Shown: piece after piece, positions 40,112 to 64,000 of the stretch | Layout: the number at the start of each line of letters is the position of its first letter | Position numbering within the stretch: position 1 is the first letter of the stretch | Origin: Aureimonas populi | GTDB lineage: Bacteria > Pseudomonadota > Alphaproteobacteria > Rhizobiales > Rhizobiaceae | DNA: 64,000 nt | Reading direction: 5' to 3' | NCBI RefSeq assembly: GCF_017815515.1 | Contig: NZ_CP072611.1 | Span: 868,001 to 932,000 of the forward strand | The notes under the pieces: generated by a model | Seen by the model: only the letters and a program-made list of their open reading frames with translations | What the model was told of the DNA's origin: nothing | Database searches by the model: none | Position numbers and translations under genes: made by a program

Positions 40112-41065
40112 TCAGGTGCGCGGCTCCGGCGCCGGGGAGAGATCGGAAATCGCCTCCCTCAACCTCATCCTCGCCTCTCGTTCGTAGGCAATGGCCGCCT
40201 CCGGGGCGATAGGGCGAAACGCGATGGGGTCTCGCGATACGGTCTGTGCGAGCCGCCCGATGTCGCATGTGATGACAGTGGCGATCTTCGCGTAGCCGCC
40301 CGTCGTCTGGCGGTCGGCCATCAGGATCACGGGGTGGCCGGAAGGCGGGATCTGGATCGAGCCCATCACCGTGCCGTCCGACACGATGTCGTGCCCCCGG
40401 GCGGAGGAGAGGAGCGGGCCCTCCAGGATCATCGCCATGCGGTCGCGTTTCGAAGTCACGCGGAAGGGTTCGCGTGTCAAGGAGCGCCATGCGTCCGCAT
40501 CGAAGAAATGGGCTTGCGGTCCCGGCACGACGTGGATCGGGGCGGATCGGGGGCGGAAAGGGCGCGCAAGCGCCAGGAGCGGCGCACCGCTCTCCTCGCC
40601 GAGCGGCAGGACGTCACCGGGCCGGAGGCTGCGCCCGTCGAGACCACCGAGACCGCTGCGCAGATGGGTCGCCCGGCTGCCCATCACCGGAACGGTATCG
40701 ATGCCGCCGGACACGGCGAGGTAGCCCCACACGGCATCGCGCAACGCACCGAGCGTGATCCGAGCGCCTGCGCGGGCATGGAACGCGCGCCAGGCGGGCA
40801 CGCGCCTGCCGTCCACCACGATTTCGAGGGAACCGCCCGTCACCGCAAGGCGCGCCGGGCGCGACAGCTCGAAGCTTCCGCCTGTCAACGCGAACTCCAG
40901 GCAGGCCGCGCCGGGACCGTTGCCCACGAGCGCGTTCGCGATGGCGAACGCCGCCGCGTCCATGGGGCCCGAGGCCGAAACGCCGAAGCGCAGATAGCCG
41001 CGACGGCCGGAATCCTGCACCGTCGTCATCGGTCCCGCCTCGCGGACGAAAAGCTCCCGCCTCAT
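40112..41065 (-). CDS. pxpC: 5-oxoprolinase subunit C (biotin-dependent carboxyltransferase-like)
   Basis: 317-residue KipA/AHS2-family protein. It shows VQDSGRRGYLRFGVSASGPMDAAAFAIANALVGN at the start, MGSRATHLRSGLGGLDGRSLRPGD, and the closing SDGTVMGSIQIPPSGHPVILMADRQTTGGYAKIATV. PxpA, B and C together use ATP to open 5-oxoproline (pyroglutamate) to glutamate. It overlaps pxpB by 4 bases at the end of the nine-gene operon. Sequence cannot exclude action on another cyclic amide or urea derivative, since the family includes allophanate hydrolase-like members. Confidence 0.88.
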   Translation of the reverse strand: MRRELFVREAGPMTTVQDSGRRGYLRFGVSASGPMDAAAFAIANALVGNGPGAACLEFALTGGSFELSRPARLAVTGGSLEIVVDGRRVPAWRAFHARAGARITLGALRDAVWGYLAVSGGIDTVPVMGSRATHLRSGLGGLDGRSLRPGDVLPLGEESGAPLLALARPFRPRSAPIHVVPGPQAHFFDADAWRSLTREPFRVTSKRDRMAMILEGPLLSSARGHDIVSDGTVMGSIQIPPSGHPVILMADRQTTGGYAKIATVITCDIGRLAQTVSRDPIAFRPIAPEAAIAYEREARMRLREAISDLSPAPEPRT

Positions 41066-41799
41066 CGCGCGATATGCCGATCCGCAAGCCGGATCGCGTC
41101 GAATTCGGCACGTTCGATGCGCCGAAAGCGAATGCGATCCCCCGCCTCGAGCAGAAAAGGTGCTGCGCGTTCGGGGGCGAAAAGTCGCAGCGGCGTCTGT
41201 CCGATGAAATGCCAGCCACTCGGCCCGGCGACGGAACTGACGCTGGCCTGGACGCCGCCGATGCCGATCGCCCCTTCGGGCACGCGCTGGCGCGGGATCG
41301 CGCGGCGGGGCGTGCGAAGCGGCTCGGGCAGACCGGAAAGATAGGCGAAGCCGGGGGCGAAGCCGATCATGGCGACCTCGTACTCGGCCGAGAGATGCAG
41401 CTCGACCAGAGCGTCCGTCGTCATTCCCTTGCCGGCGGCCAGCTCGCTCAGGTCGAGGCAGGCCTCCCCCTCATAGAGAACCGGCACGGATATCTCGCGT
41501 CCCGCCTCGCGCGCCACGGGAAGGGTTGCCAGGCGCTTCGTCACGCCTCGCGCGATCCTCGCCATATCGGTCTGGATCGGATCGAACGTCACGAGCAGCG
41601 AACGATAGGTCGGGACCACTTCGTCGATCCCGGGCAGCGGCGTGGCGCTCAGGGATTGGGCGAGGGCGACAGCGAGCCGGTTGGCGGCCTTGTCGATCGT
41701 TTCGCAGAACTCCACCGTCACCGCGCTCTCGCCACAGGAGGCGATGCGCGGGGATGTCAGGGAAGGCGTTCCCTCGGCCGGCCACCAGATTTCTCTCAT
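41062..41799 (-). CDS. pxpB: 5-oxoprolinase subunit B
   Basis: 245-residue KipI/AHS1-family protein. The conserved GFAPGFAYLSGLPEPL, IPRQRVPEGAIGIGGVQASVSSVAGPSGWHFIGQTPLRLF regions are present. ATG 41799 has a GGAG site 6 bases upstream; a GTG at 41814 is possible. It forms the ATP-using complex with PxpC. In this window the third subunit gene, pxpA, lies about 12 kb away (53625-54389) on the same strand but outside this operon. An 81-base gap separates it from the M24 gene upstream. Confidence 0.88.
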   Translation of the reverse strand: MREIWWPAEGTPSLTSPRIASCGESAVTVEFCETIDKAANRLAVALAQSLSATPLPGIDEVVPTYRSLLVTFDPIQTDMARIARGVTKRLATLPVAREAGREISVPVLYEGEACLDLSELAAGKGMTTDALVELHLSAEYEVAMIGFAPGFAYLSGLPEPLRTPRRAIPRQRVPEGAIGIGGVQASVSSVAGPSGWHFIGQTPLRLFAPERAAPFLLEAGDRIRFRRIERAEFDAIRLADRHIAR

Positions 41800-41880
41800 C
41801 GTCGCTCCGGGCACCGCCCAGTGTGAAGGGACCCCTCCCCGGTCGCGCTCCTGCTCCGCACCACTGTGCAGGCCTGCCGC

Positions 41881-43092
41881 TCACGCCGTCCAGAGCTGAA
41901 GCGGCAAGGCGCTGAAGGTTTCCACACCTCCGCTGGCGCGGATCGCGAAGGTTTGCCCGAGACCGGCGGCGAGACCGGTCCGCGCATCCGGAATCATGAT
42001 GTGGACGAAGAACACCATGCCCGGCTCCAGAACAAGCGGGTTGCCGCTGTAGATCATCGGCGGCACGTCCATCCATGTCGGCTTGAAGGTGCAGCCGAGC
42101 GCGTAGCCGCAGGCGGCGTAGCGGGCATGCGCGAAACCCGCGCGGTCCAGCACGTCACGATGAATGTCGTCGAGCGTGCCGAGCGTCTCGCCGGGCCTGG
42201 CCGCCTCCTTCACCTTCTCCAGCGCCTCGATGGTGACAGCCATTTGCCGCTGCTGGCGCGGGTCCGGCGTGCCGACCGCGAAGGTGTGCTCGATGACGAC
42301 GTGATAGCGGCAGACCGAGGCCGCAAGCTCCACGAGAACCTGATCCCGCGGCTCGATCCTGCGGGGACCGCCGATACCGCGGCCGAACAGGGCGCGAGAC
42401 CCAACATTGACGAGCGGGCCGCCGGACGGCATGTCGGCGCCGCCCGAGAGCATGGCGGTCACCGCCGCGCCGGACAGGGCTGTATCGAAGGCACCGGGCG
42501 TGGTCGCGGCGAAAGCCGCCTCCACTGCCGCGTCCGCCAGCCGCCCCGCCTCGCGCACATAGTCGAGCTCCAGCGGCGACTTCACGAGGCGCTGCCGGCG
42601 CACGATGTCGGAGGCGTCCTCGATCGCGGCGAAGCCGGACAGGGCGGCCTCGACGCTGCGCCCGTTGGCGGCCGTCAATCCGTGCGTGGCGAACTCGACG
42701 CCGATGCGCCGGCCCTCCAGGCCGAGTTCGGCAAGGAGGGCGCGAAGGTCGCGCGCCGGGTCGGCCCCTTCCGCGTTCAGCCAGATCCGCACCTCGTCGT
42801 AGAGCGAGGCGACCTCGGCCTGGCGCTTGTCGGGCGTGCGCGTGAGGAGGACGAGTGGCCCATCCTCAGCCGTAACGATGCCCGCCTGGAAGAAGACGTA
42901 ACCGGCCGTATCGAAGCCGGTGAGATAGAAATGGCTTTCCTGCGCGAAGACGAGCAGCGCGTCGAGATCGCGCTCGGCCAGATGCCGGCGCGTCTCGGCG
43001 AGCCGGGCGCGCAGTTCCGTCTCGGGAAAGCGCAACACGACCTCGCGGCCCGCGCGGGTGCGGCCGGGCCACTCCGTCCCCAGGTCGATCAT
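41881..43092 (-). CDS. M24-fold hydrolase, DoeA/creatinase-like (not a canonical aminopeptidase)
   Basis: 403 residues: a creatinase N-domain (ALLVFAQESHFYLTGFDTAGYVFFQ) and an M24 C-domain. Metal ligands are changed: the first Asp is Glu in QVLVELAASVCRYH, the second is absent (VVIEHT), the HG segment reads GYALGCTFKPTWMD, and the last Glu region reads GLGQTFAI. The GY-x-x-G-x-x-x-x-P pattern is shared with DoeA of this window. It therefore probably hydrolyses a small amide or cyclic compound rather than Xaa-Pro peptides. It overlaps the upstream M20 gene by 4 bases and shares VPPMIYSGN with the M24 protein at 49319. Confidence 0.82.
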   Translation of the reverse strand: MIDLGTEWPGRTRAGREVVLRFPETELRARLAETRRHLAERDLDALLVFAQESHFYLTGFDTAGYVFFQAGIVTAEDGPLVLLTRTPDKRQAEVASLYDEVRIWLNAEGADPARDLRALLAELGLEGRRIGVEFATHGLTAANGRSVEAALSGFAAIEDASDIVRRQRLVKSPLELDYVREAGRLADAAVEAAFAATTPGAFDTALSGAAVTAMLSGGADMPSGGPLVNVGSRALFGRGIGGPRRIEPRDQVLVELAASVCRYHVVIEHTFAVGTPDPRQQRQMAVTIEALEKVKEAARPGETLGTLDDIHRDVLDRAGFAHARYAACGYALGCTFKPTWMDVPPMIYSGNPLVLEPGMVFFVHIMIPDARTGLAAGLGQTFAIRASGGVETFSALPLQLWTA

Positions 43093-44321
43093 TGCGCCTC
43101 GCAGATGTCGCAGATGGTGATCAGGTAGATTCGGATCATGTCGAGATAGTCGGGAATATCGACCCGCTCGTCCGGCATGGTGTTGTAGCGCCCGCCCGGC
43201 CCGCACACGACGCCCTCCATGCCGCCTTCGGCGAAGAGATGCCCGGCATCGGTGCCGAAGAAGCCGGGAGGGGCGATCGCGCCCGTGGGCTGCGGCTCCC
43301 CGCGCACCGCTTCGTAAGCCGCGTTGATGGCGGTCACGATCCGGCTGTTCCGGGCGACCTCGAAGGCCGGCATGACCGGGCGGCCCTGCGCTTCCTCGGT
43401 GCGCAGGCTGGTCCTCAAGCCCGGCCAGCGAGCTTCGAGGCCGGCGAGGACGCGGCGAAGGTCGGCCAGCGCGTTTTCCTCGCTCTGCCCCGGCCCGTAG
43501 CGTCCCGACCCCTTCAGCCGCACGAAATCGGCGACCTGCGGCGGGCGCCACTCGTGCAGGTCGCGGCCGAGCGCGCCGTGGATGACGCCGACATGCACGC
43601 GATTGATCGAGCGATGCTCCTCGCTCGGGGCGTCGGAGAACGTCAGCCCGGTCAGCTCGGGTATCAGGTCGCAGGCGGCGCGGATCGCATCCACCGCCGC
43701 CTCGCGCTTCGACAGATGGCGCGTGACGCCCTCCAGCTCGATCACGAAGGTGAAGGCGGCGGCGTGCATGGTGATCGCCTGAAGGTCGGACGGCTCGGAA
43801 TTGATGAAGTAGTCCGCCCGAAGGCCCGCTTTCACCGCCGCCAGCGTGCCGACGCCCCCCTGCAGCTCACCGATCACGAAGGTCAGGATCACGTCGCCCT
43901 TCAGGCGCACGCCGTTCTGGATGAGGGAGCGGACGGCGCACAGATAGGCCGCATCGCCGGCCTTCATGTTCGACACGCCGATGCCGTAGATGAACGCTTC
44001 GTCGATCAGGCCGCCCCAGGGATCGACGGTCCAGCCCTCCGTTGCCGGGTTCGTGTCGAGATGGCCGTTGAACAGCAGGCTCCTGCCGCCCCCGGTCCCC
44101 CTCCAGACGCCAACCGCGTTCACGCGGTCGCCCTCCACCGGCATCAGATAGGCTTCATCCAGACCCATCCCGCGCATGATCTCGACCATGCGCTCGGCCA
44201 GGGCCCGCTCGCCGGGCGTCTCGGAGTAGCTCTTGTGGCGAACCATCTCGGCAAGCGTGTCGAGGCAGGCCCTCTCATCGATCCGGCGGGCGAGGGCGAG
44301 GGCGTCCACAGTGCCGGTCAT
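43089..44321 (-). CDS. M20-fold amidohydrolase with altered metal site
   Basis: 410 residues of the M20 (ArgE/DapE/carboxypeptidase G2) family: zinc-binding domain with inserted dimerisation domain. The first His is present (NGHLDT, His87). The bridging Asp is Asn118 (VSNMKAGDA), the metal Glu after the catalytic Glu152 is Leu153 (GELQGG), Glu176 (NSEPSD) is kept, and the final His is Asn380 (NTMPDE). Three of five ligands are thus replaced. It may hydrolyse an N-acyl or amide bond with a different metal state, or have lost classic activity. It is translationally coupled to the ABC ATPase upstream (ATGA) and to the M24 gene downstream. Confidence 0.8.
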   Translation of the reverse strand: MTGTVDALALARRIDERACLDTLAEMVRHKSYSETPGERALAERMVEIMRGMGLDEAYLMPVEGDRVNAVGVWRGTGGGRSLLFNGHLDTNPATEGWTVDPWGGLIDEAFIYGIGVSNMKAGDAAYLCAVRSLIQNGVRLKGDVILTFVIGELQGGVGTLAAVKAGLRADYFINSEPSDLQAITMHAAAFTFVIELEGVTRHLSKREAAVDAIRAACDLIPELTGLTFSDAPSEEHRSINRVHVGVIHGALGRDLHEWRPPQVADFVRLKGSGRYGPGQSEENALADLRRVLAGLEARWPGLRTSLRTEEAQGRPVMPAFEVARNSRIVTAINAAYEAVRGEPQPTGAIAPPGFFGTDAGHLFAEGGMEGVVCGPGGRYNTMPDERVDIPDYLDMIRIYLITICDICEAQ

Positions 44322-45967
44322 GCGGCAAACCCCTCTTCGATCCGGGCCGGTGCGGGCACCGCGCCGAGCAGCGCCCTGGTGTAGGGATGACGATCCGCAC
44401 TCATCGCCTCTTCGACCCCGAACAGGTCGACCAGCCGGCCCCGCTGCATCACCGCGATGCGGTGCGCGAGTTGGCGGACAAGGTTGAGGTCGTGCGTGAT
44501 GAAGAGGCACGCCGCGCCGAAATCGCGCTGGAGATCGACGAGGAGGCGCGCCACCGTCGCCTGAACCGACACGTCCAGCGCGGCCGTGATCTCGTCGCAG
44601 ATGACGAGCTTGGGCTCGGCGGCGAAGGCGCGGGCGATGGCGACGCGCTGCTTCTCGCCCCCCGAAAGCTGGTGCGGGTAGCGCCCGGCGTGGTCCGCCG
44701 GCAGGCGAACCATCTCGAGAAGCTCGCGCACCCGGCCGGCGACGGCGCGGCGCGGCACGATGCCGTAGAGCAGCAGCGGGCGCGACAGGATTCCGCCGAT
44801 GGTCTGGCGCGGGTTCAGGCTGGCATCCGGGTGCTGGAAGACGATCTGCACGTTGCGGCGATAGGCACGGTCGAAAGCCGCCGATCCCTTGAAATCGCGT
44901 CCCTCGAAGTGAAAGCTTCCCTCGAAGTCGACGAGCCCGGTCGCGGCCTTGGCGATGGTCGACTTTCCCGAGCCGCTTTCGCCGACGATGCCCAGAAGCT
45001 CGCCGGCCCGGATGTCGAAGCTGACGTCGCTGGCGCCCGGATGCGCGGCGGCGCTGCGATCGAGCATCCGCGTCAGCCATCCGGGCCGGCCGTACTGCAC
45101 CCCTATCCGTTCGGCGGAAAAGAGCGCGCCGCCGGCCTCGGGAGTCGATACCGTGATGCGCTCGTCGGGCTTGGGCACCGCCTCGATCAGCCGGCGCGTA
45201 TAGGCATCGCGCGGCTTGCGGAAGACCTCGTGAACCGGCCCGCTCTCCACGATCCTGCCGCGATGGATCACCGACACCTTGTCGGCGACGCGGGCAACGA
45301 GCCCGAGATCGTGGGAAATGTAGAGCGCGGCCACGCCCGTCTCCTCGCGCAGCTTCAGGAAGAGTTCGAGGATCTGGTTGGCGATCAGGATGTCGAGCGC
45401 GGTCGTGGGCTCGTCGAAGATGATCAGCTCGGGATTGCACGCAAAGGCGGTCGCGATCACCACGCGCTGCTTCTCGCCGCCGGAGGCTTCGTGCGGATAA
45501 CGCCGCATCATCGCCTTGGGATCGGAGATGCCGGTGCGCGCAAGCGCCTGCTCGCCTTCGCGCCACGCTTCCTCGCGGCTCATGCGACGGTGGCGGACCA
45601 GCACCTCGGCGAGCTGCTCACCGAGCCGTATCGAGGGGTTCAGGGCCGAACCCGGGTCCTGGAACACCATGGCGACGCGGCGCCCGCGCAAGGCGTCGAG
45701 CTCGGCGGGCGTGGAGCCGATCATGTCCTCGCCCGACAGGAGGATGGCGCCCCCGAGATCGACGGCATTCGGCGCCAGATAGCGCATGATGGCGAAGGCG
45801 AGCGTGGACTTGCCCGAGCCGCTCTCGCCCACCAGCGCATGGGTTTCGCCACGCCGGATCGAGAGCGAGACCGATTTGAGCGCCTCGAGGCGGCCTTCGT
45901 CTGTGTCGTAGGCGAGCGAGTAGTCCGTGACCTCGAGTACGGGACGAAGCTGGGTGGAAGCGGTCAA
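44318..45967 (-). CDS. Peptide/opine-type ABC transporter, fused two-domain ATPase
   Basis: 549 residues from TTG 45967, in a TTGA overlap with the permease stop. It holds two complete DppD/DppF-type ATPase domains: Walker [13 protein letters not shown] with signature [15 protein letters not shown] and Walker [13 protein letters not shown]; then [27 protein letters not shown] and [12 protein letters not shown]. Fused forms like GsiA and YejF are known. It serves the permeases at 45964-47725 and the binding protein at 47735. Confidence 0.88.
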
Positions 45968-46782
45968 CGGCTCCTCCGCGGATCGAAGGCGTCGCGCAAG
46001 GCGTCGCCGAACAGGTTGAAGCCCATCGCCGCGATGGCGATGGCGACGCCCGGCACGGCAACGGTCCAGGGATTGCGGAACATGAACTGGCGCGCCTCGG
46101 AGACCATCAGGCCCCACTCGGTGGACGGGGGCTGGGCGCCCAGCCCCAGGAAGCCCAGCGTCGCCCCGATCATGATGGCGAAGGAGACCCGGATCGTGGC
46201 TTCCACGATGATGGGGCCGACGGCGTTGGGCAGGACCTCGCGGCCGATGATCCAGGATCGGGACTCGCCGCGCGCCACGGCCGCGAGCACATATTCCCGC
46301 GTTCGCACGGACAGGACGGCGCTTCGGGCGATGCGCGCCATGCCGGGCGTGAACGTCACCGCCACCGCCAGCATGGCCTGCGTGGTCCCGCCGCCCAGAA
46401 GCGTGACGATCAGCAGCGTGAACAGAAGCTCGGGCATGGCGAGCAGGCCGTCGAGGATGCGCATCACGATCGCATCGGTCGTGCCGCCCGTAACGCCGGC
46501 GAAGACGCCGATCACCGACCCGAGGCCGACGCCCAGGACCGTCGCCCCGAGGCCGAAGGAGACGGTCGCGGGCGCACCGCTGAGAATGCGGGACAGAAGG
46601 TCCCGGCCATACTGGTCGGTGCCGAGCGGGAATGCCCAGCTCGGCCCCTCGAGCCGCGATGTGGCGTGGAAGGCCTGGGGATCGTACGGGGCGAGCCAGG
46701 GGCCGAACAGCGCGGCGAACAGGACGAGCGTGAGCAGGATCGTGCCGATGAGCCCGGCCGGGCTTCGAAGGATGTCACGCAT
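45964..46782 (-). CDS. Peptide/opine-type ABC transporter permease (DppC type)
   Basis: 272-residue inner membrane permease with about six hydrophobic segments. It has the LGTDQYGRDLLSRILSGA motif of DppC proteins and an EAA loop around REYVLAAVARGESRSWIIGREVLPNA. ATG 46782 overlaps the preceding permease gene by 8 bases; the longer open frame is that gene's shadow. Confidence 0.88.
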   Translation of the reverse strand: MRDILRSPAGLIGTILLTLVLFAALFGPWLAPYDPQAFHATSRLEGPSWAFPLGTDQYGRDLLSRILSGAPATVSFGLGATVLGVGLGSVIGVFAGVTGGTTDAIVMRILDGLLAMPELLFTLLIVTLLGGGTTQAMLAVAVTFTPGMARIARSAVLSVRTREYVLAAVARGESRSWIIGREVLPNAVGPIIVEATIRVSFAIMIGATLGFLGLGAQPPSTEWGLMVSEARQFMFRNPWTVAVPGVAIAIAAMGFNLFGDALRDAFDPRRSR

Positions 46783-47725
46783 AGCGAACCCGGGGATCGA
46801 GAGCGGCGATGACGATGTCCGCCAGGAGGTTGGAGAGCGCATAGACCACCGCCATCAGCAGGGCCACGGCCTGGATCACCGGGAGGTCGCGGTTCTGAAG
46901 CGCGTAGATCAGCAGCCGCCCGAGGCCGGGCCATGCGAAGATCTCCTCCACCACGATGATGCCGCCGAGCAGATAGCCGACGTCGAGAGAAATCACCGCG
47001 ATCGCCGGCGCCAGCGAGTTCGGCAGCGCGTGCCGGCGGATCACCCGGCCACGCTTCAGACCCTTGAGGCGCGCGGCGCGGATGTAGTCCGAGGACAGGA
47101 CGTCCGACATCTCGCTGCGCACCTGGCGCGAGATATGCGCCATGAGGACCATGCCCAGAGTGGCGGCCGGGAGCACGAGATGGGACAGGAATCCGGTGAA
47201 GCTCTCGGACGGAGCGACGAAGCCGCCCGCCGGGAAGATCGGCGAGCCGGGTGCGGCGAAGATGACGAGGAGGAGGGTCGCCGTCACGAATTCGGGCACC
47301 GCCGTGCCGACATAGGAAAAGACGCCGATGCCCAGATCGGTGCCGGTGCCGCGCTTGAGCGCAGCGAGGGCGCCGAGCGGGATCGCGACGACGGTGACGG
47401 CGACGAGCGCGGTGGCGCCGAGCAGCGCCGAGTTCCAGAAAGCCTCCCCGACGACCTGGGACACCGGCAGCGACAGGCGCAGCGACATTCCGAAGTCGCC
47501 GCGCACGACACCGGACACCCAGTCGAAATACTGGACGAGAAGGGGTTGATCGAGACCGAGCTGCCGCTCGAGCGCGGCCAGCGATTCAGGCGTGGCGTAT
47601 TCGCCGAGGATCATCAGGGCGGCGTTTCCCGGCAGGATCATCGTCACCGTGAAGACGGCCACGGTGACGATGGCCAGGACGACGATGATCATCCCGAGAC
47701 GGCGCAGGAAATAGGCGAGCGTCAC
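46775..47725 (-). CDS. Peptide/opine-type ABC transporter permease (DppB type)
   Basis: 316-residue permease with six hydrophobic segments. DppB features are the first segment MIIVVLAIVTVAVFTVTMILPGNAA, LGLDQPLLVQYFDWVSGVVRGDFGMSL, and the EAA loop YIRAARLKGLKRGRVIRRHALPNSLAP. It begins at GTG 47725, 9 bases after the binding protein stop. It forms a heterodimer with the DppC-type protein. Confidence 0.88.
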   Translation of the reverse strand: MTLAYFLRRLGMIIVVLAIVTVAVFTVTMILPGNAALMILGEYATPESLAALERQLGLDQPLLVQYFDWVSGVVRGDFGMSLRLSLPVSQVVGEAFWNSALLGATALVAVTVVAIPLGALAALKRGTGTDLGIGVFSYVGTAVPEFVTATLLLVIFAAPGSPIFPAGGFVAPSESFTGFLSHLVLPAATLGMVLMAHISRQVRSEMSDVLSSDYIRAARLKGLKRGRVIRRHALPNSLAPAIAVISLDVGYLLGGIIVVEEIFAWPGLGRLLIYALQNRDLPVIQAVALLMAVVYALSNLLADIVIAALDPRVRYA

Positions 47726-47734
47726 GCGGCCGTC

Positions 47735-49285
47735 TCAGCTACGCTCGAGCCAGACGTCTTCGACGTAGAAGTAGCGGCTGATCGGCGCGATGCTCCAGTC
47801 CTCCACCGTGTCGCGACTGGCCGTCAGGACATCCTCGAAGAACGGCACGATGTAAGGCCGCTCCTCGATCTCCAGGGCCTGCGCCTGCGCATAGATCTCG
47901 GCGCGTCGCGCCTCGTCCACCGTCGCGCGTCCCTCGGCGATGAGCCGGTCGAACGTCTCGTTCTTCCAGGCCGTGTCCTCATAGGAGGCTTCCGAGGTGA
48001 GCAGCAGGTTGTACGTCGCGTCGATCGTCGGCTGCATGCCCCAGTAGCCGATGTAGAAGGCGCCCTTCATCCAGACATTGGCGAGGTAGGTGTCGTGCGG
48101 CATCGTCTCCACCTCGATGGTGAAGCCTGCCGCGGCCGCCGTCTGCTGGATGGCGATCGCGGTCTGGACGCGGATGCCCGGCCGGTCCGAAGCCACGAGC
48201 GTCGCCCGGATGCCATCCGGATAACCGGCCTCGGCAAGGAGCGCGCGCGCCCGGTCGGGATCGTAGGCGATCTCTTCCGTCCCGGTCGCGAACTGGATCT
48301 CCGGCGCCACGATGCTGTCATAGGCGGGACGGCCGAACCCTTCGAGGATGATATCGACGAGGAGCTGCCGGTCGACCGCATGCGCGAGCGCCTTGCGAAC
48401 TCTCACATCGTTCCACGGCTCCTGATCCTGGCGCATGGTGACGCAGACGTAACGGCCCGAAGCGACCCGCTGGGCCTCGATGCCGATGGCATCGGCAACG
48501 CGCTGGAAGTCGGCCTGCTGCACCGTCAGCATGACATCCGTCGAGCCCGACAGGAAGTTGGCGGTTTCGGCGGTGAGGTCGGGGAAGAGCAGCATCTCGA
48601 CGGCGTCGAGATAGGGCTTGCCCTCCTGATAGTAGTTCTCGTTCTTGACCAGACGGACGATGCGCGCGCTGTCATAGCGCTCCAGCTTGAACGGGCCGGT
48701 GCCGTTGGCCTTCGTGTCGAGCTCGCTCAGCGGGGCTTCCAGGGCCGCGCGCGACAGGATGCGCGCGTTGGCGTGGGCGGTCGAGAAGGGCAGGTCGGCG
48801 AACGGCGTCTTCAGCTTGAACACCACCGTGAGGGGATCGACCGCCTCCACCGTGTCGACCATGTCGAGCACCGGACGCGCGGCTGCCGGCACGTCGGGAT
48901 CGAGGATCGCCTCGAAGGTCGCCACCACGTCGTCGGCCGTGAAGGGCTGGCCGTCGTGGAAGGTGACGTTCTCGCGCAGGTGGAACGTGAACTCGGTCGC
49001 GTCGTCCGAGGCCTCCCAGCTCGTGGCCAGGTCCGGATGAGCCTGGTTGTCGACGCCGATGCGCGTGAGCCCCGAATAGATCATGTCGATGCAGGGATAT
49101 TCCGCCGGCCCCGACAGGGAGAGAACATTGAGCGTCGCGATCCGGGTGGAGTGGCTGATGCGCAGCGTGCCGCCGGCCTGCGGCGTGCCCGACTGGGCAA
49201 GGGCCGTGCCGCGCATGGGCAGGAGCGCGGCCGAGGCGAGACCGCCCAGAAGCACATGGCGCCTGGTGAGGGTGAAGTGGGTCAT
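47735..49285 (-). CDS. Peptide/opine-type periplasmic binding protein (family 5)
   Basis: 516 residues. The N-terminus (TRRHVLLGGLASAALLPMRG) has twin arginines and looks like a Tat signal. The mature domain is family 5: GGTLRISHSTRIATLNVLS, DLATSWEASDDATEFTFHLRENVTFHDGQPFTADDVVATFE. Binding proteins of this group carry di- and oligopeptides, opines or other amides. It is the second gene of the operon, 33 bases after an M24 gene. Confidence 0.88.
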   Translation of the reverse strand: MTHFTLTRRHVLLGGLASAALLPMRGTALAQSGTPQAGGTLRISHSTRIATLNVLSLSGPAEYPCIDMIYSGLTRIGVDNQAHPDLATSWEASDDATEFTFHLRENVTFHDGQPFTADDVVATFEAILDPDVPAAARPVLDMVDTVEAVDPLTVVFKLKTPFADLPFSTAHANARILSRAALEAPLSELDTKANGTGPFKLERYDSARIVRLVKNENYYQEGKPYLDAVEMLLFPDLTAETANFLSGSTDVMLTVQQADFQRVADAIGIEAQRVASGRYVCVTMRQDQEPWNDVRVRKALAHAVDRQLLVDIILEGFGRPAYDSIVAPEIQFATGTEEIAYDPDRARALLAEAGYPDGIRATLVASDRPGIRVQTAIAIQQTAAAAGFTIEVETMPHDTYLANVWMKGAFYIGYWGMQPTIDATYNLLLTSEASYEDTAWKNETFDRLIAEGRATVDEARRAEIYAQAQALEIEERPYIVPFFEDVLTASRDTVEDWSIAPISRYFYVEDVWLERS

Positions 49286-49318
49286 GGCATCGGGTCCTTC
49301 GCTTGGCGGGGATGAGGA

Positions 49319-50506
49319 TCAGGAGATGACGGTCAGCTCGTCCGGCAGGCCGGTCAGGAGTTCGGGCGCGCCGTCGGTGACGAGCAGCGTGTGGCCGACG
49401 CCCATGGCCAGCCCGGTGTCGCCGTCGCCGTTCATCACGTGGTAGAACAGCGTCATGCCCGGCTCGCAGAGCGTGGCGTTGCCGGAATAGATCATCGGCG
49501 GGACGTCCATCGACGTCGGCGCGAAGGAGATGCCGACCGAATAGCCGGTCGCACCGTAGCGCGAAGCGCGGTAACCGGCGTCGTCCAGCCCGGTCGCATA
49601 GGCGTCGAAGATTTCTCCCAGACTGGTGCCGGGGCGCGCGATCCCGGTCATCCGCGCGAGCGTCCGCCGTGCGACGTCGTACATGTGCCGCTGGCGATCC
49701 GGGACCTTGCCGAAGAGGATCGTCCATTCCGTCTTCACGTTGTAGTGGCGATAGGGAACGGGATATTCGACCAGGATCTGATCGTTCGGCTCGATCCGCC
49801 GGGGGGCGGTGACGCCACGGCCGAACACGGCGCGCTCCCCCGAATTGAAGATCGGCGCGTTGGGCGGCATGTCGGCGCCGTCCGCCAGGATCGAGTCGAG
49901 GTAAGCGGCCTTGATCTGGCTATCGAGCACGCCGGGCCGGGCGGCGTCGATCACGCGAGCGAGCGAGCGGTCGCAGATTTCGCCGGCCTTTCGCATCATC
50001 GCGATCTCCGCCGGAGACTTGACGACGCGCAGCTTGCGGATCAGGTGCCCGTCGTCCTCCAGCCGCACCCGGTCGCCGAAGGCCTGCTGGCACCGCCAGA
50101 GGTTCCATCCGGTGAGGCCGTGGGTGTTGAGCTCGATCAGGACGCGGCCGCCCGGAAGGCCCAACTCCTGGAGAATCGCCTTCAGGTCCTCCGCCGGGTT
50201 GGCGTCGTCCGCGTCCCACCAGATGCGGATGTCCTCGATGGTGGATGTCTGGCGCGCCTGAAGAAGGTCGGGCCGGCGCGTGAGGAGCACGATCGGCCGG
50301 TCGTCGGCCGTGACGACGGCGCACTGAAAGAAGACGAAGCCGCCCGTATCGTAGCCGGTGAGCCAGAAAAGGCTCTCCTGCGAAAAGACGAGCATGGCGT
50401 CCCCACCGCGTTCGGCGAGCGCGCGGCGAAGCCGTGCCTGCCGGTCGAGGTGCTCGCCGCGAGCGAACGGAAGATGAGAGGCGGGTCTGGAAAGCACGAC
50501 GACCAT
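49319..50506 (-). CDS. M24-fold hydrolase, DoeA/creatinase-like
   Basis: 395 residues from ATG 50506. The N-domain has MLVFSQESLFWLTGYDTGGFVFFQ, and the C-domain is M24 with altered ligands: Glu in QILVEYPVPYRHYN, no second Asp (VKTEWT), GYSVGISFAPTSMD instead of the HG segment, and VGHTLLVT at the last Glu. It is similar to the M24 protein at 41881 in the same operon (VPPMIYSGN, FGRG-rich loop, PRRIEP). First gene of the operon, divergent from the GntR gene. A longer open frame upstream has no coding character. Confidence 0.82.
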   Translation of the reverse strand: MVVVLSRPASHLPFARGEHLDRQARLRRALAERGGDAMLVFSQESLFWLTGYDTGGFVFFQCAVVTADDRPIVLLTRRPDLLQARQTSTIEDIRIWWDADDANPAEDLKAILQELGLPGGRVLIELNTHGLTGWNLWRCQQAFGDRVRLEDDGHLIRKLRVVKSPAEIAMMRKAGEICDRSLARVIDAARPGVLDSQIKAAYLDSILADGADMPPNAPIFNSGERAVFGRGVTAPRRIEPNDQILVEYPVPYRHYNVKTEWTILFGKVPDRQRHMYDVARRTLARMTGIARPGTSLGEIFDAYATGLDDAGYRASRYGATGYSVGISFAPTSMDVPPMIYSGNATLCEPGMTLFYHVMNGDGDTGLAMGVGHTLLVTDGAPELLTGLPDELTVIS

Positions 50507-50573
50507 TTCGCTGCTCGGCCGGGCGAATGACGCACCGCACCGCAAAAAGCTGATTGAACGGATCGTATGGTTC

Positions 50574-50581
50574 GGTATACC
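50574..50581. promoter_or_regulatory. GGTATACC palindrome between divergent operons (GntR/FCD operator candidate)
   Basis: GGTATACC is an 8-base palindrome in the context TTCGGTATACCAGA, in the 203-base gap between the M24 gene (minus) and the GntR gene (plus). FCD-type GntR proteins often bind GTATAC-centred sites. Supported only by position and form. Confidence 0.45.
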
Positions 50582-50709
50582 AGACGTCAACCGAGAGAAT
50601 ATGTTCGGTTCGAAATTTTTGGATTGCGATCGGAGGGGGTTGCGCCACAAGGCTCCGATGTGCGCCAACGGAGCGCATCCGCTGGGCGCGAACGATGCAG
50701 GAAGGCGAT

Positions 50710-51360
50710 ATGCTGGGCACTCCGGAGAAGCGGCTGGCGCTTCAGGCCTACGAAAAGATTCTCGATCTCATCCTCAACGGCCCGGCCGTTCCGGGTGATG
50801 TCGTCAACGAGCGGCGGATAGCCGAGATCGTCGGCATGTCCCGCACCCCGGTTCGCGACGCGTTGCTGATGCTGGAGGGAGAAGGGTTGCTCCTGCGGCA
50901 AGGCCGCGCTCTGCACGTCAAGCGGATGCGCCTCGAGGATTACATGGATGCGCTGCAGATCAGGCTCCTTCTGGAGCCGACCGTGGCGCGTCTGGCGGCC
51001 GGCCAGGTCGAGAAGGCCGACACGCAGCGCCTGCGCGAGGAGCTGGAGGACATTCTCGGCTCGGAGCCCACGGAGCGGGCCGATCGATCGCTGGTGCGTG
51101 GCGTCGACGAAAGCCTCCACGGCCTGCTGGCCGACGTCGCGGGGAACGCGCAATTGTCGGCGATCATCCGCACGCTGCGTCGCCAGACACAGATGTTCGA
51201 CCTTCGCAGCATGCCGGAGCGTCTGGAGGATACGTGCCAGGAACATCTCGCCATCGTCGACGCCGTCGAGGCCGGAGACGGGGAACGCGCTGCCGCGGCC
51301 ATGACGGCCCATCTCAGCCGGGTGCGCGACAGCATCATTGGCAGATTGACCCGCACCTGA
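50710..51360 (+). CDS. GntR-family regulator (FCD subfamily)
   Basis: 216 residues from ATG 50710, with AGGAAGG 6 bases upstream; ATG 50695 is the alternative. The N-terminal winged helix-turn-helix (VNERRIAEIVGMSRTPVRDALLMLEGEGLL) is followed by an all-helical FCD effector domain with metal-binding candidates (DESLHGLLADVAGN and ECQEHLAIVDAVEAGD-like regions). It starts a plus-strand operon with an amidohydrolase and a hydroxyacid dehydrogenase and is divergent from the M24/ABC/M20/pxp operon, so it likely controls both. Confidence 0.87.
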   Translation: MLGTPEKRLALQAYEKILDLILNGPAVPGDVVNERRIAEIVGMSRTPVRDALLMLEGEGLLLRQGRALHVKRMRLEDYMDALQIRLLLEPTVARLAAGQVEKADTQRLREELEDILGSEPTERADRSLVRGVDESLHGLLADVAGNAQLSAIIRTLRRQTQMFDLRSMPERLEDTCQEHLAIVDAVEAGDGERAAAAMTAHLSRVRDSIIGRLTRT

Positions 51361-51382
51361 CTTCATCCGCCCGGAGACCCAA

Positions 51383-52674
51383 GTGAACCTCGAGACATCC
51401 CGCATCGCCGCGCCCCCCGAGCCTGATATCGTGCTGGCGGAGCGGCTCTTTGAGGAACTGCGCGAACGCACCGGCACGTCCGCCGGGATCACGCGCGCCT
51501 CCTACGGGATGGGCGAGCAGATCGCGCACGACATGGTTCGGCGCGAGGCCCGGCGCCTCGGCATGACGTGCCAGACGGATGCCGGCTGCAACCTCTACAT
51601 GACCCTCAAGGGGCGCGGGGACGGCCCGGCCATCTTCATCGGATCGCACCTCGACTCCGTCCCGTTCGGCGGCAATTTCGACGGTGCGGCCGGCGTCCTG
51701 GCGGGACTTGCGGTCGCCAGCGGCTATCGGCAGGCCGGGGTGGTGCCTCCCCAGGACCTCACGGTCGCGGCGATACGTGCGGAAGAGAGCACCTGGTTCG
51801 GGGCATCCTATATCGGCAGCCGGGCCGCCTTCGGCCGCCTGACCGGCGCGGAGCTTGACGGCGTCTTGCGCGCCGGCGACCTGATCAAGCTCGGAGCGGC
51901 GATCGACGCGGCGGGCGGCGACACCAGCGAAATCCGCCGGGGCACGCCGCAGCTCGACGCCGCGCGCATCGGCCTTTTCATCGAACCCCATATCGAGCAG
52001 GGGCCGGCGCTTGTCGATGCGAACCGGCCCGTCGGCATCGTGACCGGCATACGCGGCAGCTTCCGCTACCGGCAAGCCCGCTGCATCGGCGTCTACGCCC
52101 ATTCCGGCGCGACACCGCGCGCGAGCCGCAGCGACGCCGCCCTTGCCGTGGCCCTTCTGATGGCCGAACTCGACGAGTTGTGGACGCGGCTGGCCGACGA
52201 TGGTCATGACCTCGTCATCACCTTCGGGCAGATTTCGACCGATCCCGCCGAGGCGGCCTTTTCCAAGATCGCCGGCCGGGTCGACTTTTCCGTCGATATT
52301 CGCAGCCAGAGCGTCGAGACGCTCGGCCTCATGCGAGCCGAATTCGCCCGCAAGGTCGCCGGGGTGGAAGCAAGGCAGCGGGTCCGGTTCGAGCTGGGCA
52401 GGCAAACCTCCAGCGAGCCGGCCATGATGCACCCGGAGGTGGTCGGCGGCTTCACGCGGATCGCCGACACGCAGCGCGTGCCGGCGCTCGTGATGCCGAG
52501 CGGGGCCGGCCACGATGCCGCGGTCTTCGCGGCGGAAGGCGTGCCCACCGGCATGCTTTTCATCCGCAACCGCAACGGCAGCCACAATCCGAACGAGGCG
52601 ATGGAGATCGCCGACTTCGCGCAGGCCTGCCGCCTCCTGTCGGTCTTCTGCCTCCGAGATCTGCGGCGGGCCGC

Positions 52675-52678
<4 letters not shown>
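51383..52678 (+). CDS. M20C amidohydrolase (N-carbamoyl-amino acid / allantoate amidohydrolase type)
   Basis: 431 residues from GTG 51383. The binuclear metal site of hydantoinase/carbamoylase proteins is intact: His89 (GSHLDS), Asp100 (GGNFDG), Glu134-Glu135 (RAEES), plus IEPHIEQGP and the SGAGHDA motif. The family cleaves carbamoyl or ureido C-N bonds, for example N-carbamoyl-L-amino acids, ureidoglycolate precursors or beta-ureidopropionate. Contrast with the altered M20 protein at 43089. It overlaps the dehydrogenase gene by 4 bases. The substrate is unknown. Confidence 0.85.
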
Positions 52679-53595
<917 letters not shown>

Positions 53596-53624
53596 GCCTG
53601 GGTCGGACCGGGGCCGGGGCGCCG

Positions 53625-54389
53625 TCAGGGGGCCAGGCTGGACCCCAGCACGAAGCCCGCCGCCTCGAGCCCCTCGCGCAGCATGCGCGCCATCGCGAGC
53701 GCGTTCGGACTGTCGCCGTGAACGCAGATCGAATCGATCCCGACGTCGAGGGACTTGCCCGAGGTCGAGACGATGCGCCGTCCGCGCACCATGTCGATCA
53801 CCCTCGCCAGGGCTTCACGGGAATCGTGCACCATCGCGTCGGGCTCGCTGCGCGGCGTGAGGTTGAAGCTGTCGGCATAGGTGCGGTCGGCGTAGATCTC
53901 GCGGATCGGCCGAAGACCGAGCGTTTCGGCCGCTCTTTCCGTCGCGGTGCCCGGCATGACCATGAAGGCGAGGCCGGAATCGACGGCGCGAATGCCGCGA
54001 GCGACCGCGAGCGCCAACTCGTCGTCGTCCGCGCAGGCGTTGCCGAGAGCGCCGTGCGTCTTCACATGCGTCATCGGGTGATCCTCCAGAGCGCAGATGC
54101 CGGCGAGGGCTCCTGCCTGATAGGCGACGAGATTCTCGATGTCGCGCAGGGAGAGGCCCGGCATCGGGCGGCGGCCGAAGCCCGCGAGATCGGCGTAACC
54201 CGGATGCGCACCGACCGCCACGTTCCGCTCGCGCGCGGCGGCGACCGTCGAACGCATGATCGCCGGGTCGCCGGCATGGAAGCCGCAGGCGACGTTCGCG
54301 GTGGTGACGACGCCCAGCAGCGCGGCGTCGTCTCCCATGCGCCATGGCCCGAAGCCCTCCCCGAGATCGGCGTTGAGATCGATCCGCAT
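53625..54389 (-). CDS. pxpA: 5-oxoprolinase subunit A
   Basis: 254-residue LamB/YcsF-family protein. The clear family block MRIDLNADLGEGFG ... DAALLGVVTTANVACGFHAGDPAIM is at the start, followed by GAHPGYADLAGFGRRPM and HVKTHGALGN. It is the third subunit of the ATP-dependent 5-oxoprolinase. It is separated from pxpBC by 12 kb and eleven genes, which is unusual since pxpABC are normally adjacent. It converges with the dehydrogenase gene and is divergent from the amidotransferase gene. Confidence 0.9.
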   Translation of the reverse strand: MRIDLNADLGEGFGPWRMGDDAALLGVVTTANVACGFHAGDPAIMRSTVAAARERNVAVGAHPGYADLAGFGRRPMPGLSLRDIENLVAYQAGALAGICALEDHPMTHVKTHGALGNACADDDELALAVARGIRAVDSGLAFMVMPGTATERAAETLGLRPIREIYADRTYADSFNLTPRSEPDAMVHDSREALARVIDMVRGRRIVSTSGKSLDVGIDSICVHGDSPNALAMARMLREGLEAAGFVLGSSLAP

Positions 54390-54412
54390 GGCGGGATTCC
54401 TTTCTCTTCCGA

Positions 54413-54434
54413 GCCGCGGCGGCCGCGGTCTTTT
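54413..54434 (+). terminator. GC stem with T run between pxpA and amidotransferase gene
   Basis: CCGCGG (54414-54419) and CCGCGG (54423-54428) pair around CGG and are followed by TCTTTTT. This is intrinsic-terminator-like on the plus strand, 21 bases before the amidotransferase ATG. It could stop read-through from the 50.7-53.6 kb operon or act as an attenuator in the leader. Confidence 0.45.
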
Positions 54435-54454
54435 TCCAGCAGGGCGTTCAGGCA

Positions 54455-55162
54455 ATGAGCAAAAGCAGACGACTTCTTTATCTCGGTAACGGGCGCGCGC
54501 TGCAATCGGTCGCCAGGCTCGACGAGCGCTTCGAAGGCTGGAACCTGGCCGTGGACCGTTACTGGGCGCTCGACGGGCAATTTCCCGAAAGCCTCGACGG
54601 CTACGACGCCATCTTCCTGTCCGGCAGCCCCCACGGCGCCTACGAGGACGTGCCGTTCATCCTGCGGGAACACGAGCTGATCCGGGAAGCGGCCAGGCGC
54701 TCCATTCCCATGCTCGGCATCTGCTTCGGCAGCCAGATTCTCGCCTCGGCGCTGTGCGGCCGCGACCAGGTGTTCCGCCGCCCGAATTGCGAGATCGGCT
54801 ACAAGGACCTGGCCGTCACCTCCTCGGCGGGCGACGACGCGCTGGCGAGGGATTGGGGGGCGAGCGTGCGCATGTTCGTCTGGCACAACGACGAAGTCCG
54901 CCACGACCATCCCGACATGGTGATCCTCGCCTCCTCCGACGCCTGCCCCAACCAGGTCTGGCGCCACCGCACGGTTCCGGCGTGGGGAATCCAGGGCCAT
55001 CCGGAGATCACCAGGGCGCAGGCGCCTGCCTGGTTCTCCCAGAACCGCCTGCGAATGGAAAAGGACGGAGGCGACGTCGACGGCTTCATCGCCGAGGCCG
55101 ACGAGGCCGCGGAGGCGAAGACGATGCTGAGCCGGTTCGCCGAACTCGTCCGCAACGGCTGA
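54455..55162 (+). CDS. Class I glutamine amidotransferase-like protein
   Basis: 235 residues of the stand-alone class I amidotransferase type. The catalytic triad is visible: Cys90 (LGICFGSQ), His182 and Glu184 (GIQGHPEI). No synthetase partner domain is present. Stand-alone members hydrolyse glutamine or gamma-glutamyl amides. It precedes an M24 gene by 32 bases on the same strand. A gamma-glutamyl compound would fit the nearby 5-oxoprolinase genes, but that is inference. Confidence 0.82.
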   Translation: MSKSRRLLYLGNGRALQSVARLDERFEGWNLAVDRYWALDGQFPESLDGYDAIFLSGSPHGAYEDVPFILREHELIREAARRSIPMLGICFGSQILASALCGRDQVFRRPNCEIGYKDLAVTSSAGDDALARDWGASVRMFVWHNDEVRHDHPDMVILASSDACPNQVWRHRTVPAWGIQGHPEITRAQAPAWFSQNRLRMEKDGGDVDGFIAEADEAAEAKTMLSRFAELVRNG

Positions 55163-55194
55163 TCGCCCCGCCGAGACCAAGGAGACAGACATTG

Positions 55195-56328
55195 GTGCAG
55201 ACCGCCTACTGGTTCGAGCCCGCCGAATATCGCGCGCGCATCCTTCGGGTCCAGGCAATGCTCACAGAGCGCGGCCTGGACGCGGCTCTGGCCTTCATGC
55301 CCGAGACCGTGACCTGGACGACGGGATACTTCACCCGCGGCTACGGCACGTTCCAGTTCGCCATCATCCCCGCCTCGGGCGAGCCGACGCTCTTCTGCCG
55401 GGACGTGGAGGCCTATTATCTCGACACGACCTGCGTCTTTCCGGACCGCGTCCTATGGACCGACAGCGACGACCGGACCGCCCTGGCCGTCGAGGCGATC
55501 CGTTCCCGCGTCGGCCGGACGGCCGCGATCGGCGTGGAGATGGGAAGCTGGGTTCTCAATGCCCAGCGCTGGGAAGCCATCCGCGCGGGGCTGCCGGGCG
55601 CGCGTTTCGAGGATCTGACCGAGCATCTGGCGCAGATGCGCTTCGTCAAATCGGGCGCCGAGATCGCCTATCAGCGTCGCGCCGCCCTGGCGGCGGAAGC
55701 GGGCATGCAGGCGGCGATCGCGACGGCCGGCACCGGTGTTCCGGAGCGGGAGATGGCGGCCGAGGTGTGTGCGGCGATGATTCGGGCGGGCTCCGATCTG
55801 CCGGGGCCGGGCGTCATGTCCTCGGGCGAACGCGCCTACCATCTTCACGGGGGCTACGGCGATCGCGTTCTGGAACGCGGCGACATCGTGCAGATCGAGG
55901 TCACACCGAACTCTCGACACTACCATGCCCGCTTCATGCGCCCGATCCGCGTGGCCGAGGCAAGCGATGAAGACCACCGGATCGTGGAAACGTTGATCCG
56001 CATTCAGGACGAGGCGATCGCCGCCGTGCGTCCCGGCGTGCCGGCCCGCCTGCCGGATGCGATCTATCGCGAGGGCGTGATGTCGGCCGGGTTGCGGGCG
56101 ACCTACACCAACAAGACCTTCTATTCGGTCGGCCTCATGTTGCAGCCGAACGGGGGCGAAGCGCTGGAGGCGCACCCCCTGTCCGACTGGTCGTTCGAGG
56201 AAGGCATGGTGTTTCACACCTATGTTCTCGCCAGGGGCTTCGGCATGTCGGAGACGATCGCGGTGACGAAGGACGGCTGCGAGCGGCTGACGAACTTCCC
56301 CCGCCGGCTCTTCGTTACCAGCCGCTGA
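55195..56328 (+). CDS. M24-fold hydrolase, DoeA/creatinase-like
   Basis: 377 residues from GTG 55195 (TTG 55192 is equally possible; GGAG lies 7-10 bases upstream). N-domain ALAFMPETVTWTTGYFTRGYGTFQF; C-domain M24 with altered ligands: Glu in DIVQIEVTPNSRHYH, no second Asp (ARFMRPIRV), FYSVGLMLQPN instead of the HG segment, and GMSETIAVT at the last Glu. The ends resemble DoeA (ESIAVTETG and PRQLF there; ETIAVTKDG and PRRLF here). It follows the amidotransferase gene and converges with the CocE-type gene. The substrate is unknown. Confidence 0.82.
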   Translation: MQTAYWFEPAEYRARILRVQAMLTERGLDAALAFMPETVTWTTGYFTRGYGTFQFAIIPASGEPTLFCRDVEAYYLDTTCVFPDRVLWTDSDDRTALAVEAIRSRVGRTAAIGVEMGSWVLNAQRWEAIRAGLPGARFEDLTEHLAQMRFVKSGAEIAYQRRAALAAEAGMQAAIATAGTGVPEREMAAEVCAAMIRAGSDLPGPGVMSSGERAYHLHGGYGDRVLERGDIVQIEVTPNSRHYHARFMRPIRVAEASDEDHRIVETLIRIQDEAIAAVRPGVPARLPDAIYREGVMSAGLRATYTNKTFYSVGLMLQPNGGEALEAHPLSDWSFEEGMVFHTYVLARGFGMSETIAVTKDGCERLTNFPRRLFVTSR

Positions 56329-58237: not shown

Positions 58238-58239
58238 TT

Positions 58240-59814: not shown

Positions 59815-59831
59815 GCGTCAGTCTCCTTGGG

Positions 59832-61828: not shown

Positions 61829-61842
61829 GTCGCCTGCCTCCG

Positions 61843-62745: not shown

Positions 62746-62748
62746 CGC

Positions 62749-63714: not shown

Positions 63715-63807
63715 GCGCGCCTCGTTGATCGGTGAAGACTGTTTATTCGCGGTGCAGCATCGGTTATTGCGCGCACTTTGGGCAGATGGCGGGAAGGCCG
63801 CAATAGT

Positions 63808-64000
63808 ATGACGAGGGCGGGTAGGCTTATGCGTTCGCCGCATAGCGACGGGAGAAGCGGCGATGTCAGCCTGCGCCAGCTCGAGGTCTTCCGTGCCATC
63901 GTCGCCAACGGGTCGACGCTAGGCGCCGCGCGCGAGCTGGAGATCTCGCAATCGGCCGTCTCGCGCCTTCTGACGCAGCTCGAGGAGACGCTGGGCGTGC
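63808..64000 (+). CDS. LysR-family regulator (partial, runs off the window)
   Basis: The first 64 or so residues are visible. The LysR winged helix-turn-helix is clear: SLRQLEVFRAIVANGSTLGAA and ELEISQSAVSRLLTQLEETLGV. Two in-frame starts are possible (ATG 63808 with GAAGG, ATG 63829 with GAGGGCGGG upstream). It is divergent from the peptide ABC operon, so it probably regulates it. Confidence 0.85.
   Translation, partial: MTRAGRLMRSPHSDGRSGDVSLRQLEVFRAIVANGSTLGAARELEISQSAVSRLLTQLEETLGV

Follow-up and report, generated by a model that had tools for sequence, protein, structure and literature searches.

A conserved set of creatinase-like, M20-type and Pxp-like genes makes up a predicted catabolic regulon in Aureimonas populi and other proteobacteria

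In hyuAB-hyuC systems, an ATP-driven cyclic-amide hydrolase is encoded beside an M20C hydrolase of N-carbamoyl amino acids. Among other M20 proteins, 5-nitroanthranilate aminohydrolase (5NAA-A) binds a single metal; to our knowledge, mononuclear addition-elimination M20 chemistry has so far been known from a nitroaromatic enzyme. The chemistry of PxpABC, invoked below for ATP-driven ring opening, is dealt with in PMC13274462, and in PMC3187862 the doe genes of ectoine breakdown stand without pxpABC, M20C or class I glutamine amidotransferase (GATase) genes. Here, we describe 15 genes from Aureimonas populi that combine pieces reminiscent of all these systems. They occupy positions 40112-56328 of a 64 kb stretch (the window; positions 868001-932000 of a 3.82 Mb single-contig genome). 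Judged from sequence, the set very probably forms one catabolic regulon, because its gene content and order are conserved and it shares a palindrome that is missing from the four tested loci lacking the regulator.

Every gene listed for this place by an earlier sequence-only reading of the window was found by coding-frame scoring and Pfam searches. On the minus strand lie, in order, pxpC, pxpB, M24_1, M20_1, the ABC ATPase gene, oppC, oppB, the gene of a family 5 solute-binding protein (SBP) and M24_2. The plus strand carries the FCD regulator, M20_2 and D-2-hydroxyacid dehydrogenase genes; pxpA follows on the minus strand, and a GATase-type hydrolase gene and M24_3 follow on the plus strand. 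Same-strand neighbours within the set overlap by a few bases or are separated by gaps of at most 66 bases. Scans of the window with Rfam (at the gathering threshold) and for tRNA genes gave no hits.

M20_1 served as the anchor for comparisons. One pattern-based scan of 84,980 genomes retrieved 271 M20_1 relatives, and the comparison uses the 80 best, each with flanks of up to 10 kb. In 33 of these 80 loci (type A), the window's own M24_1 and/or M24_2 are found beside M20_1 at >60% identity; 36 loci (type B) have a different gene set beside M20_1, and 11 match neither type, several of them being short contigs. In type A, the operon M24_2-SBP-OppB-OppC-ATPase-M20_1-M24_1 usually stands opposite FCD-M20_2-dehydrogenase. 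The rest of the set was looked for in 22 type A genomes, in 13 of which the core's own contig was extended. Nine of the 22 have the full set on a single contig (L038, L044, L047, L049, L051, L053, L055, L059 and L060; M24_3 of L051 runs past the contig end), and seven of these nine share the order M24_3-GATase / pxpA-pxpC-pxpB / dehydrogenase-M20_2-FCD // M24_2-SBP-OppB-OppC-ATPase-M20_1-M24_1. The pieces are arranged otherwise in L038, L060 and the window. Loci L067, L069 and L071 lack the FCD gene and an M24_1 ortholog, and L071 also lacks M20_2; in L061 and L064, the sole nearby pxp gene is a pxpA (46-48%) and the dehydrogenase gene is missing. Contig ends limit the test for the rest of the set in L040 and L066.

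Apart from the window's own, the database relatives of M20_1 in the top 120 of 2356 (from 8000 scored candidates) are 78-88% identical. Within the host family, M20_1 occurs in 7 of 297 genomes and M24_1, at at least 70% identity, in three, all of them within those seven (the window's genome included); in a class-wide sample of 385 genomes, M24_1 at >54% identity was found only in the window's own genome. The ratio of nonsynonymous to synonymous substitution rates (dN/dS) is 0.10-0.33 for ten genes compared with locus L038, indicating purifying selection, and 0.10-0.17 for M20_1, M24_1 and M24_2 across three compared pairs. A search of 50,697 phage records for M20_1 gave nothing at E 1e-30, and a phage-borne origin was rejected.

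The gene of the GntR/FCD regulator (50710-51360, plus strand; PF00392 and PF07729) starts at an ATG at 50710, the coding score also permitting 50695. The spacer between it and M24_2 contains the palindrome TGGTATACCA: in 25 loci, the window included, it is exact in 19 and within one mismatch in 24, with two mismatches in L046, while shuffled spacers gave a mean of 0.16 and a maximum of 2. The window's own copy, CGGTATACCA (50573-50582, one mismatch), is the only such site in the 64 kb and overlaps TTGAC-N3-TGGTATACC on the minus strand (50590-50574). The site is also present between pxpA and the GATase gene in 10 of 12 spacers (shuffle mean 0.03, maximum 2), two of these ten (L153 and L154) lying on contigs other than that of the core. 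The two spacers without it, L147 and L148, are extensions of the regulator-less loci L067 and L069. Upstream of M24_2 in the four FCD-less loci tested no site was found, the best match having four mismatches. A Terrarubrum plasmid with a type A operon carries the same site with one mismatch. It looks as if the FCD regulator holds the regulon through TGGTATACCA, its predicted operator. The sequence-only reading had taken the genes for one system and made its case depend on co-occurrence of the M24, ABC, M20 and pxp genes elsewhere; they do co-occur in other genomes, and gene content, gene order and the shared predicted operator bear out a single system.

M24_1 (41881-43092), its paralogue M24_2 (49319-50506, 46%) and M24_3 (55192-56328, start TTG 55192 or GTG 55195) all match PF00557 and PF01321, and alignment shows that none of them has the metal ligands of the family. 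The first two had already been described as free of metal ligands; the same holds for the third, and what sets M24_3 apart is that it alone retains a creatinase-type His/Glu/Glu (H219, E236 and E354, in 6/6 copies). Comparison was made with H232, E262 and E358, which we take to be the catalytic residues of creatinase. At these positions M24_1 has R238, E255 and Q380 (in 29, 29 and 28 of 29 copies) and M24_2 has R230, E247 and H372 (29/29 each), so that Arg replaces the catalytic His, and Gln or His, respectively, replaces the second Glu. The altered residues are thus nearly uniform, and fully so in 81/81 copies of M20_1; together with the dN/dS of 0.10-0.17 this led us to discard the idea of decayed pseudo-enzymes. 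Scores against the two DoeA models of NCBIfam are 114/167 bits for M24_1, 113/150 for M24_2 and 111/172 for M24_3, below the cut-offs of TIGR02993 (613) and NF038259 (575). The structural model of M24_1 (mean pLDDT 75.9) has its best fold match in the ectoine hydrolase EutD (6yo9, TM 0.82/0.83, E 4.5e-26), with prolidases close behind; the PDB matches of M24_3 are DoeA (6twk, 101 bits, the best) and creatinase (1chm, 60 bits).

M20_1 (43089-44321, PF01546) keeps the His and Asp of the HxD motif (H87, D89), the catalytic Glu (E152) and a Glu ligand (E176), whereas the bridging Asp has become N118, the second Glu L153 and the C-terminal His N380; these are the roles that we presume for its motif residues. 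The pattern H87, N118, L153, E176, N380 is present in 81/81 copies, and the alignment of M20_1 with 5NAA-A (5k8p) gives the same ligand pattern. By its motifs, then, M20_1 is a protein that retains the ligands of one metal site and loses those of the other. Its earlier description as poor in metal ligands holds for the three that are replaced, and a metal-free M20_1 was rejected, since the ligands of the first site survive. The ArgE/DapE model TIGR01910 is not reached (137.5 vs a cut-off of 217.6), in addition to the replaced second-site ligands. No other protein of the importer operon is as well conserved over type A and type B as M20_1.

The pxp genes of the set are pxpB (41062-41814; PF02682, carboxyltransferase subdomain C/D, 222 bits) and a pxpC-like gene (40112-41065; PF02626, subdomain A/B, 290 bits), with pxpA (LamB/YcsF; PF03746, 309 bits) at 53625-54389. 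PxpA and PxpB pass their models (NF003814, 338 vs 226; TIGR00370, 174.6 vs 145.55), and the PxpC-like protein passes the broader TIGR00724 (269 vs 230). The host genome has a second pxpA (G000:C1:643188-643901) and seven HyuB/5-oxoprolinase-type genes elsewhere, and therefore Pxp of the set is not its sole candidate 5-oxoprolinase. M20_2 (51383-52678) has intact motifs and passes the hydantoinase/carbamoylase-family subfamily model TIGR01879 (240 vs 204); it fails the narrower models ErtE (257 vs 520), AllC (163 vs 598) and PRK12891 (436 vs 461), and the ErtE score was taken to exclude an ergothioneine-type pathway. Its best PDB match is the N-carbamoyl-L-amino acid hydrolase 3n5f (153 bits). 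The M20C group acts on N-carbamoyl/ureido groups and is not known for action on peptides. The D-2-hydroxyacid dehydrogenase (52675-53595; PF02826, PF00389) is phosphoglycerate-dehydrogenase-like (1wwk, 225 bits). The protein first called glutaminase-like (54455-55162; PF00117, 66.5 bits) is better described, from Pfam, NCBIfam and PDB matches, as a class I GATase-type hydrolase; it matches TM1158 (hypothetical, 58 bits), GMP synthase subunit A (49) and gamma-glutamyl peptidase 1 (44). In L050, a separate operon (L050:12770-20806) holds pxpC, pxpB, M20C, 2-hydroxyacid dehydrogenase, FCD-like and TRAP transporter genes, which suggests that PxpBC plus carbamoylase is a portable unit.

The importer is of Opp/Dpp type. 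Its family 5 solute-binding protein (47735-49285; PF00496, 298 bits) has its best PDB matches in AgaA (6hlx, 175 bits), 5u4o (167) and YliB (1uqw, 157); its permeases are of OppB type (46775-47725; PF00528, PF19300) and OppC type (45964-46782; PF00528, PF12911; ATG at 46782), and its fused double ATPase of DppD-DppF type (44318-45967, start set by coding score) has two PF00005 stretches and an oligo_HPY domain (PF08352). Next to the set, on the minus strand (56363-63843), are a gene of S15/PepX_C type and another ABC importer of peptide type, made up of an SBP5 protein, two permeases and the products of two ATPase genes; they do not recur beside the set in type A loci within the 10 kb flanks.

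Type B loci (Rhizobium, Bosea, Pantoea) share the importer gene order and M20_1 with the set, but their core lacks FCD, M20C, pxp and dehydrogenase genes. M20_1 was found on 61 plasmid records at 63-79% identity, among them those of Rhizobium (29), Pantoea (13) and Neorhizobium (6). Thirteen of the 14 plasmid neighbourhoods examined are type B, with a HutC-like regulator, the M20 protein c1, importer and M20_1, the Variovorax one being without c1; the M24 protein c3 is present in 8 of the 14. The c1 protein retains the HxD, DMK, EE and C-terminal His motifs. A FastTree phylogeny of M20_1 unites all 34 type A copies in a single 37-member clade (support 1.0), to which L068, L077 and L085 also belong. 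No characterisation of type B systems was found in the open-access literature. On plasmids of Pantoea dispersa and Sodalis praecaptivus (L121:3661-12932 and L123:3656-12912), a type B importer, two M20 genes and one M24 gene are followed by a terminal ddpX (D-Ala-D-Ala dipeptidase); this operon represents another uncharacterised catabolic system with M20_1 at its base. In Paracoccus aminophilus, racemase and D-cysteine desulfhydrase genes adjoin the type B operon. The type A locus of the Terrarubrum plasmid lacks M20_1, which is found in a separate type B locus on the same plasmid, and adjoins allophanate-hydrolase, AtzE and HpxZ genes.

On four plasmids, relatives of M24_3 (49-70%) are accompanied by an ABC importer of a different kind and, in varying combinations, by genes of GATase or gamma-glutamyl-GABA hydrolase, 2-hydroxyacid dehydrogenase and Asp/Glu racemase. 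A legume-symbiont plasmid (L158:8011-19731) combines an ABC importer and an M24 gene with genes of 2-hydroxyacid dehydrogenase, gamma-glutamyl-GABA hydrolase, class III aminotransferase, semialdehyde dehydrogenase, tartrate dehydrogenase and racemase. Elsewhere, a single M24 gene (48% to M24_1, 51% to M24_2) is followed by M20, amidohydrolase and FAD-oxidase genes, with a GcvT-DAO dehydrogenase gene adjoining; at L133:3662-15452, genes of these four kinds lie beside an SBP_8 importer and a GcvT-DAO dehydrogenase gene, and catabolism of an N-methyl or guanidino compound is possible there.

We tentatively propose, at a little short of even chances, that the set, as one FCD-held regulon, serves to take up and degrade a small compound resembling an N-substituted amino acid. 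A nitrogen-rich cyclic amide, ureide or amidine would fit better than an ordinary peptide, because ureide genes adjoin one copy of the set, which itself includes a carbamoylase, creatinase kin and Pxp. The binding protein with OppBC and the ATPase would import a conjugate bearing an amide, amidine or ureido group. M24_1 and M24_2 would act jointly, probably as a heterodimer, as a metal-free C-N hydrolase of creatinase/EutD type with a new catalytic set, and one-metal M20_1 would cleave another C-N bond by addition-elimination, as 5NAA-A does. Amidino or gamma-glutamyl-type side groups could be removed by M24_3 and the GATase-type hydrolase. PxpABC would use ATP to open the five-membered ring of a lactam or cyclic ureide, and M20_2 would take off an N-carbamoyl group, giving a pxpABC version of the hyuAB-hyuC hydantoin logic. 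The dehydrogenase might process a leftover 2-oxo or 2-hydroxy acid, and the product amino acid, possibly glutamate, would enter central metabolism. Both the order of steps and the substrate class are inferred, and the chemistry as a whole is put forward more tentatively still.

A number of observations pull against this proposal. The window's own 65-base pxpA-GATase spacer has no operator (best hit four mismatches), and therefore that promoter must be driven otherwise here; pxpBC lies at the opposite end of the window's set. Neither pxpA nor pxpC was found near the core in L039, L041, L045, L046 and L062, importer and M20_1 occur in type B systems without pxp in the core, and a Roseomonas plasmid carries GATase-M24_3 with the core not beside it. 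As to the chemistry, the PxpC-like protein stays below the 5-oxoprolinase equivalog NF045499 (223 vs 500). The fold match of the M20_1 model to 5NAA-A is tied with that to 3pfo, annotated only as a putative deacetylase, and pLDDT is <50 at 379-384 and in three other stretches. The M24_1 model was built from 6 sequences and has pLDDT <50 at 237-241 and 326-352.

A peptide is favoured instead by what adjoins type B systems, namely ddpX and racemase genes. The importer would then serve for pyroglutamyl, D-amino-acid-containing or cell-wall peptides, the M24 and M20 proteins would be peptidases or their kin, and Pxp would convert pyroglutamate to glutamate. The family 5 binding protein and Opp permeases are in keeping with this, as are the ddpX that ends the type B operon in Pantoea dispersa and Sodalis praecaptivus, the genes of racemase and D-cysteine desulfhydrase in Paracoccus aminophilus, and the S15/PepX_C gene and second peptide-type importer next in the window. 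However, M24_1 to M24_3 lack the metal ligands of prolidases, M20_1 has just one of the two metal sites that M20 peptidases possess and M20_2 belongs to M20C (TIGR01879, 3n5f), and we regard peptide use as unlikely, at about one chance in four.

Somewhat less probable is that two or three unrelated portable modules (importer-M24-M20, pxpABC-M20C-dehydrogenase and GATase-M24_3) travel together and act on loosely related substrates. Type B loci, M24_3 relatives with other importers and a second pxpA in the window's own genome agree with such an arrangement. So does L050, where every gene is present but pxpBC-M20_2-dehydrogenase forms a separate module next to the TRAP transporter, and so do the genomes of L039, L041 and L046, in which a pxpABC-FCD group (about 50-57% identity) lies away from the core. 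Against it stand the same site in both promoters, its absence from the four regulator-less loci, and the nine complete sets, seven of them in one order. That the genes encode a variant of ectoine/hydroxyectoine or creatine catabolism, with the M24 proteins as ring or amidine hydrolases, is very improbable, for although all three score best to DoeA models and the best matches of M24_1 and M24_3 are EutD and DoeA, the scores are far under the DoeA cut-offs, the catalytic His and second Glu are gone from M24_1 and M24_2, and no AstE/AspA-type deacylase (the DoeB kind) is among the 15 genes scanned with Pfam, so that the ectoine logic seen by the sequence-only reading comes down to kinship of fold. 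The pyroglutamyl or N-acyl substrate and the glutamate end product suggested by that reading are likewise conjectures.

A bolder form of the proposed uptake and breakdown of an N-substituted compound strikes us as improbable. In it, M24_1 and M24_2 would be an obligate heterodimer with a composite metal-free site (Arg and Gln / Arg and His around the kept Glu) and a C-N cleavage unlike that of creatinase or EutD, M20_1 would be the natural-substrate branch of mononuclear addition-elimination M20 chemistry, and PxpABC an ATP-dependent hydantoinase-type enzyme, jointly degrading a widespread environmental compound without a known bacterial pathway. Mycosporine-like amino acids, prompted by the 5NAA-A kinship and marine hosts, are a guess at the substrate; no catabolic cluster for them was found among the papers listed by a search of the open-access literature.

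The substrate should be common, given that bacteria of sea water, soil, roots, nodules and leaves, spread over the alpha-, beta- and gammaproteobacteria, carry the importer and M20_1. The predicted operator and the binding protein make it findable by a reporter or binding screen. Catalysis by M24 proteins without metal and by M20 proteins with one metal can be tested directly on three conserved enzymes with rebuilt active sites, and if PxpABC pairs with an M20C carbamoylase here, other "5-oxoprolinase" genes may encode lactam or ureide hydrolases.

Like the sequence-only reading, we could match the set to no described pathway: none was found among the papers listed by searches of the open-access literature, which covered 5NAA-A, creatinase-like M24 proteins, pxp together with M24/M20, agropinic acid, mycosporines, clusters for lactam or carbamoyl compounds, ergothioneine and DdpX. 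The set has in common with ectoine doeAB/eutDE that the genes of an M24 hydrolase, another hydrolase and a regulator lie together, DoeA being the nearest curated family of its M24 proteins and EutD the nearest fold of M24_1. It differs in M24 scores far under the equivalog cut-offs, in the altered catalytic set of M24_1 and M24_2, and in having an M20 protein as the second hydrolase, where PMC3187862 gives a desuccinylase/aspartoacylase kind for DoeB/EutE. M20_1 is 19-24% identical to 5NAA-A (5k8m-5k8p) in structural alignments; unlike the latter, it sits with an amino-acid-type importer, in a set without an aromatic ring-cleavage gene. As in pxpTABC of Corynebacterium glutamicum (PMC13274462), PxpA and PxpB are over their cut-offs and a GntR-type regulator is matched with an inverted-repeat operator, but the transporter there is of another type and the operator is agattgttcaacaatct rather than TGGTATACCA. 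PxpC here is under the PxpC equivalog, and eleven further structural genes belong to the predicted regulon. Compared with hyuAB-hyuC, the ring opener would, by analogy, be PxpABC and not HyuAB.

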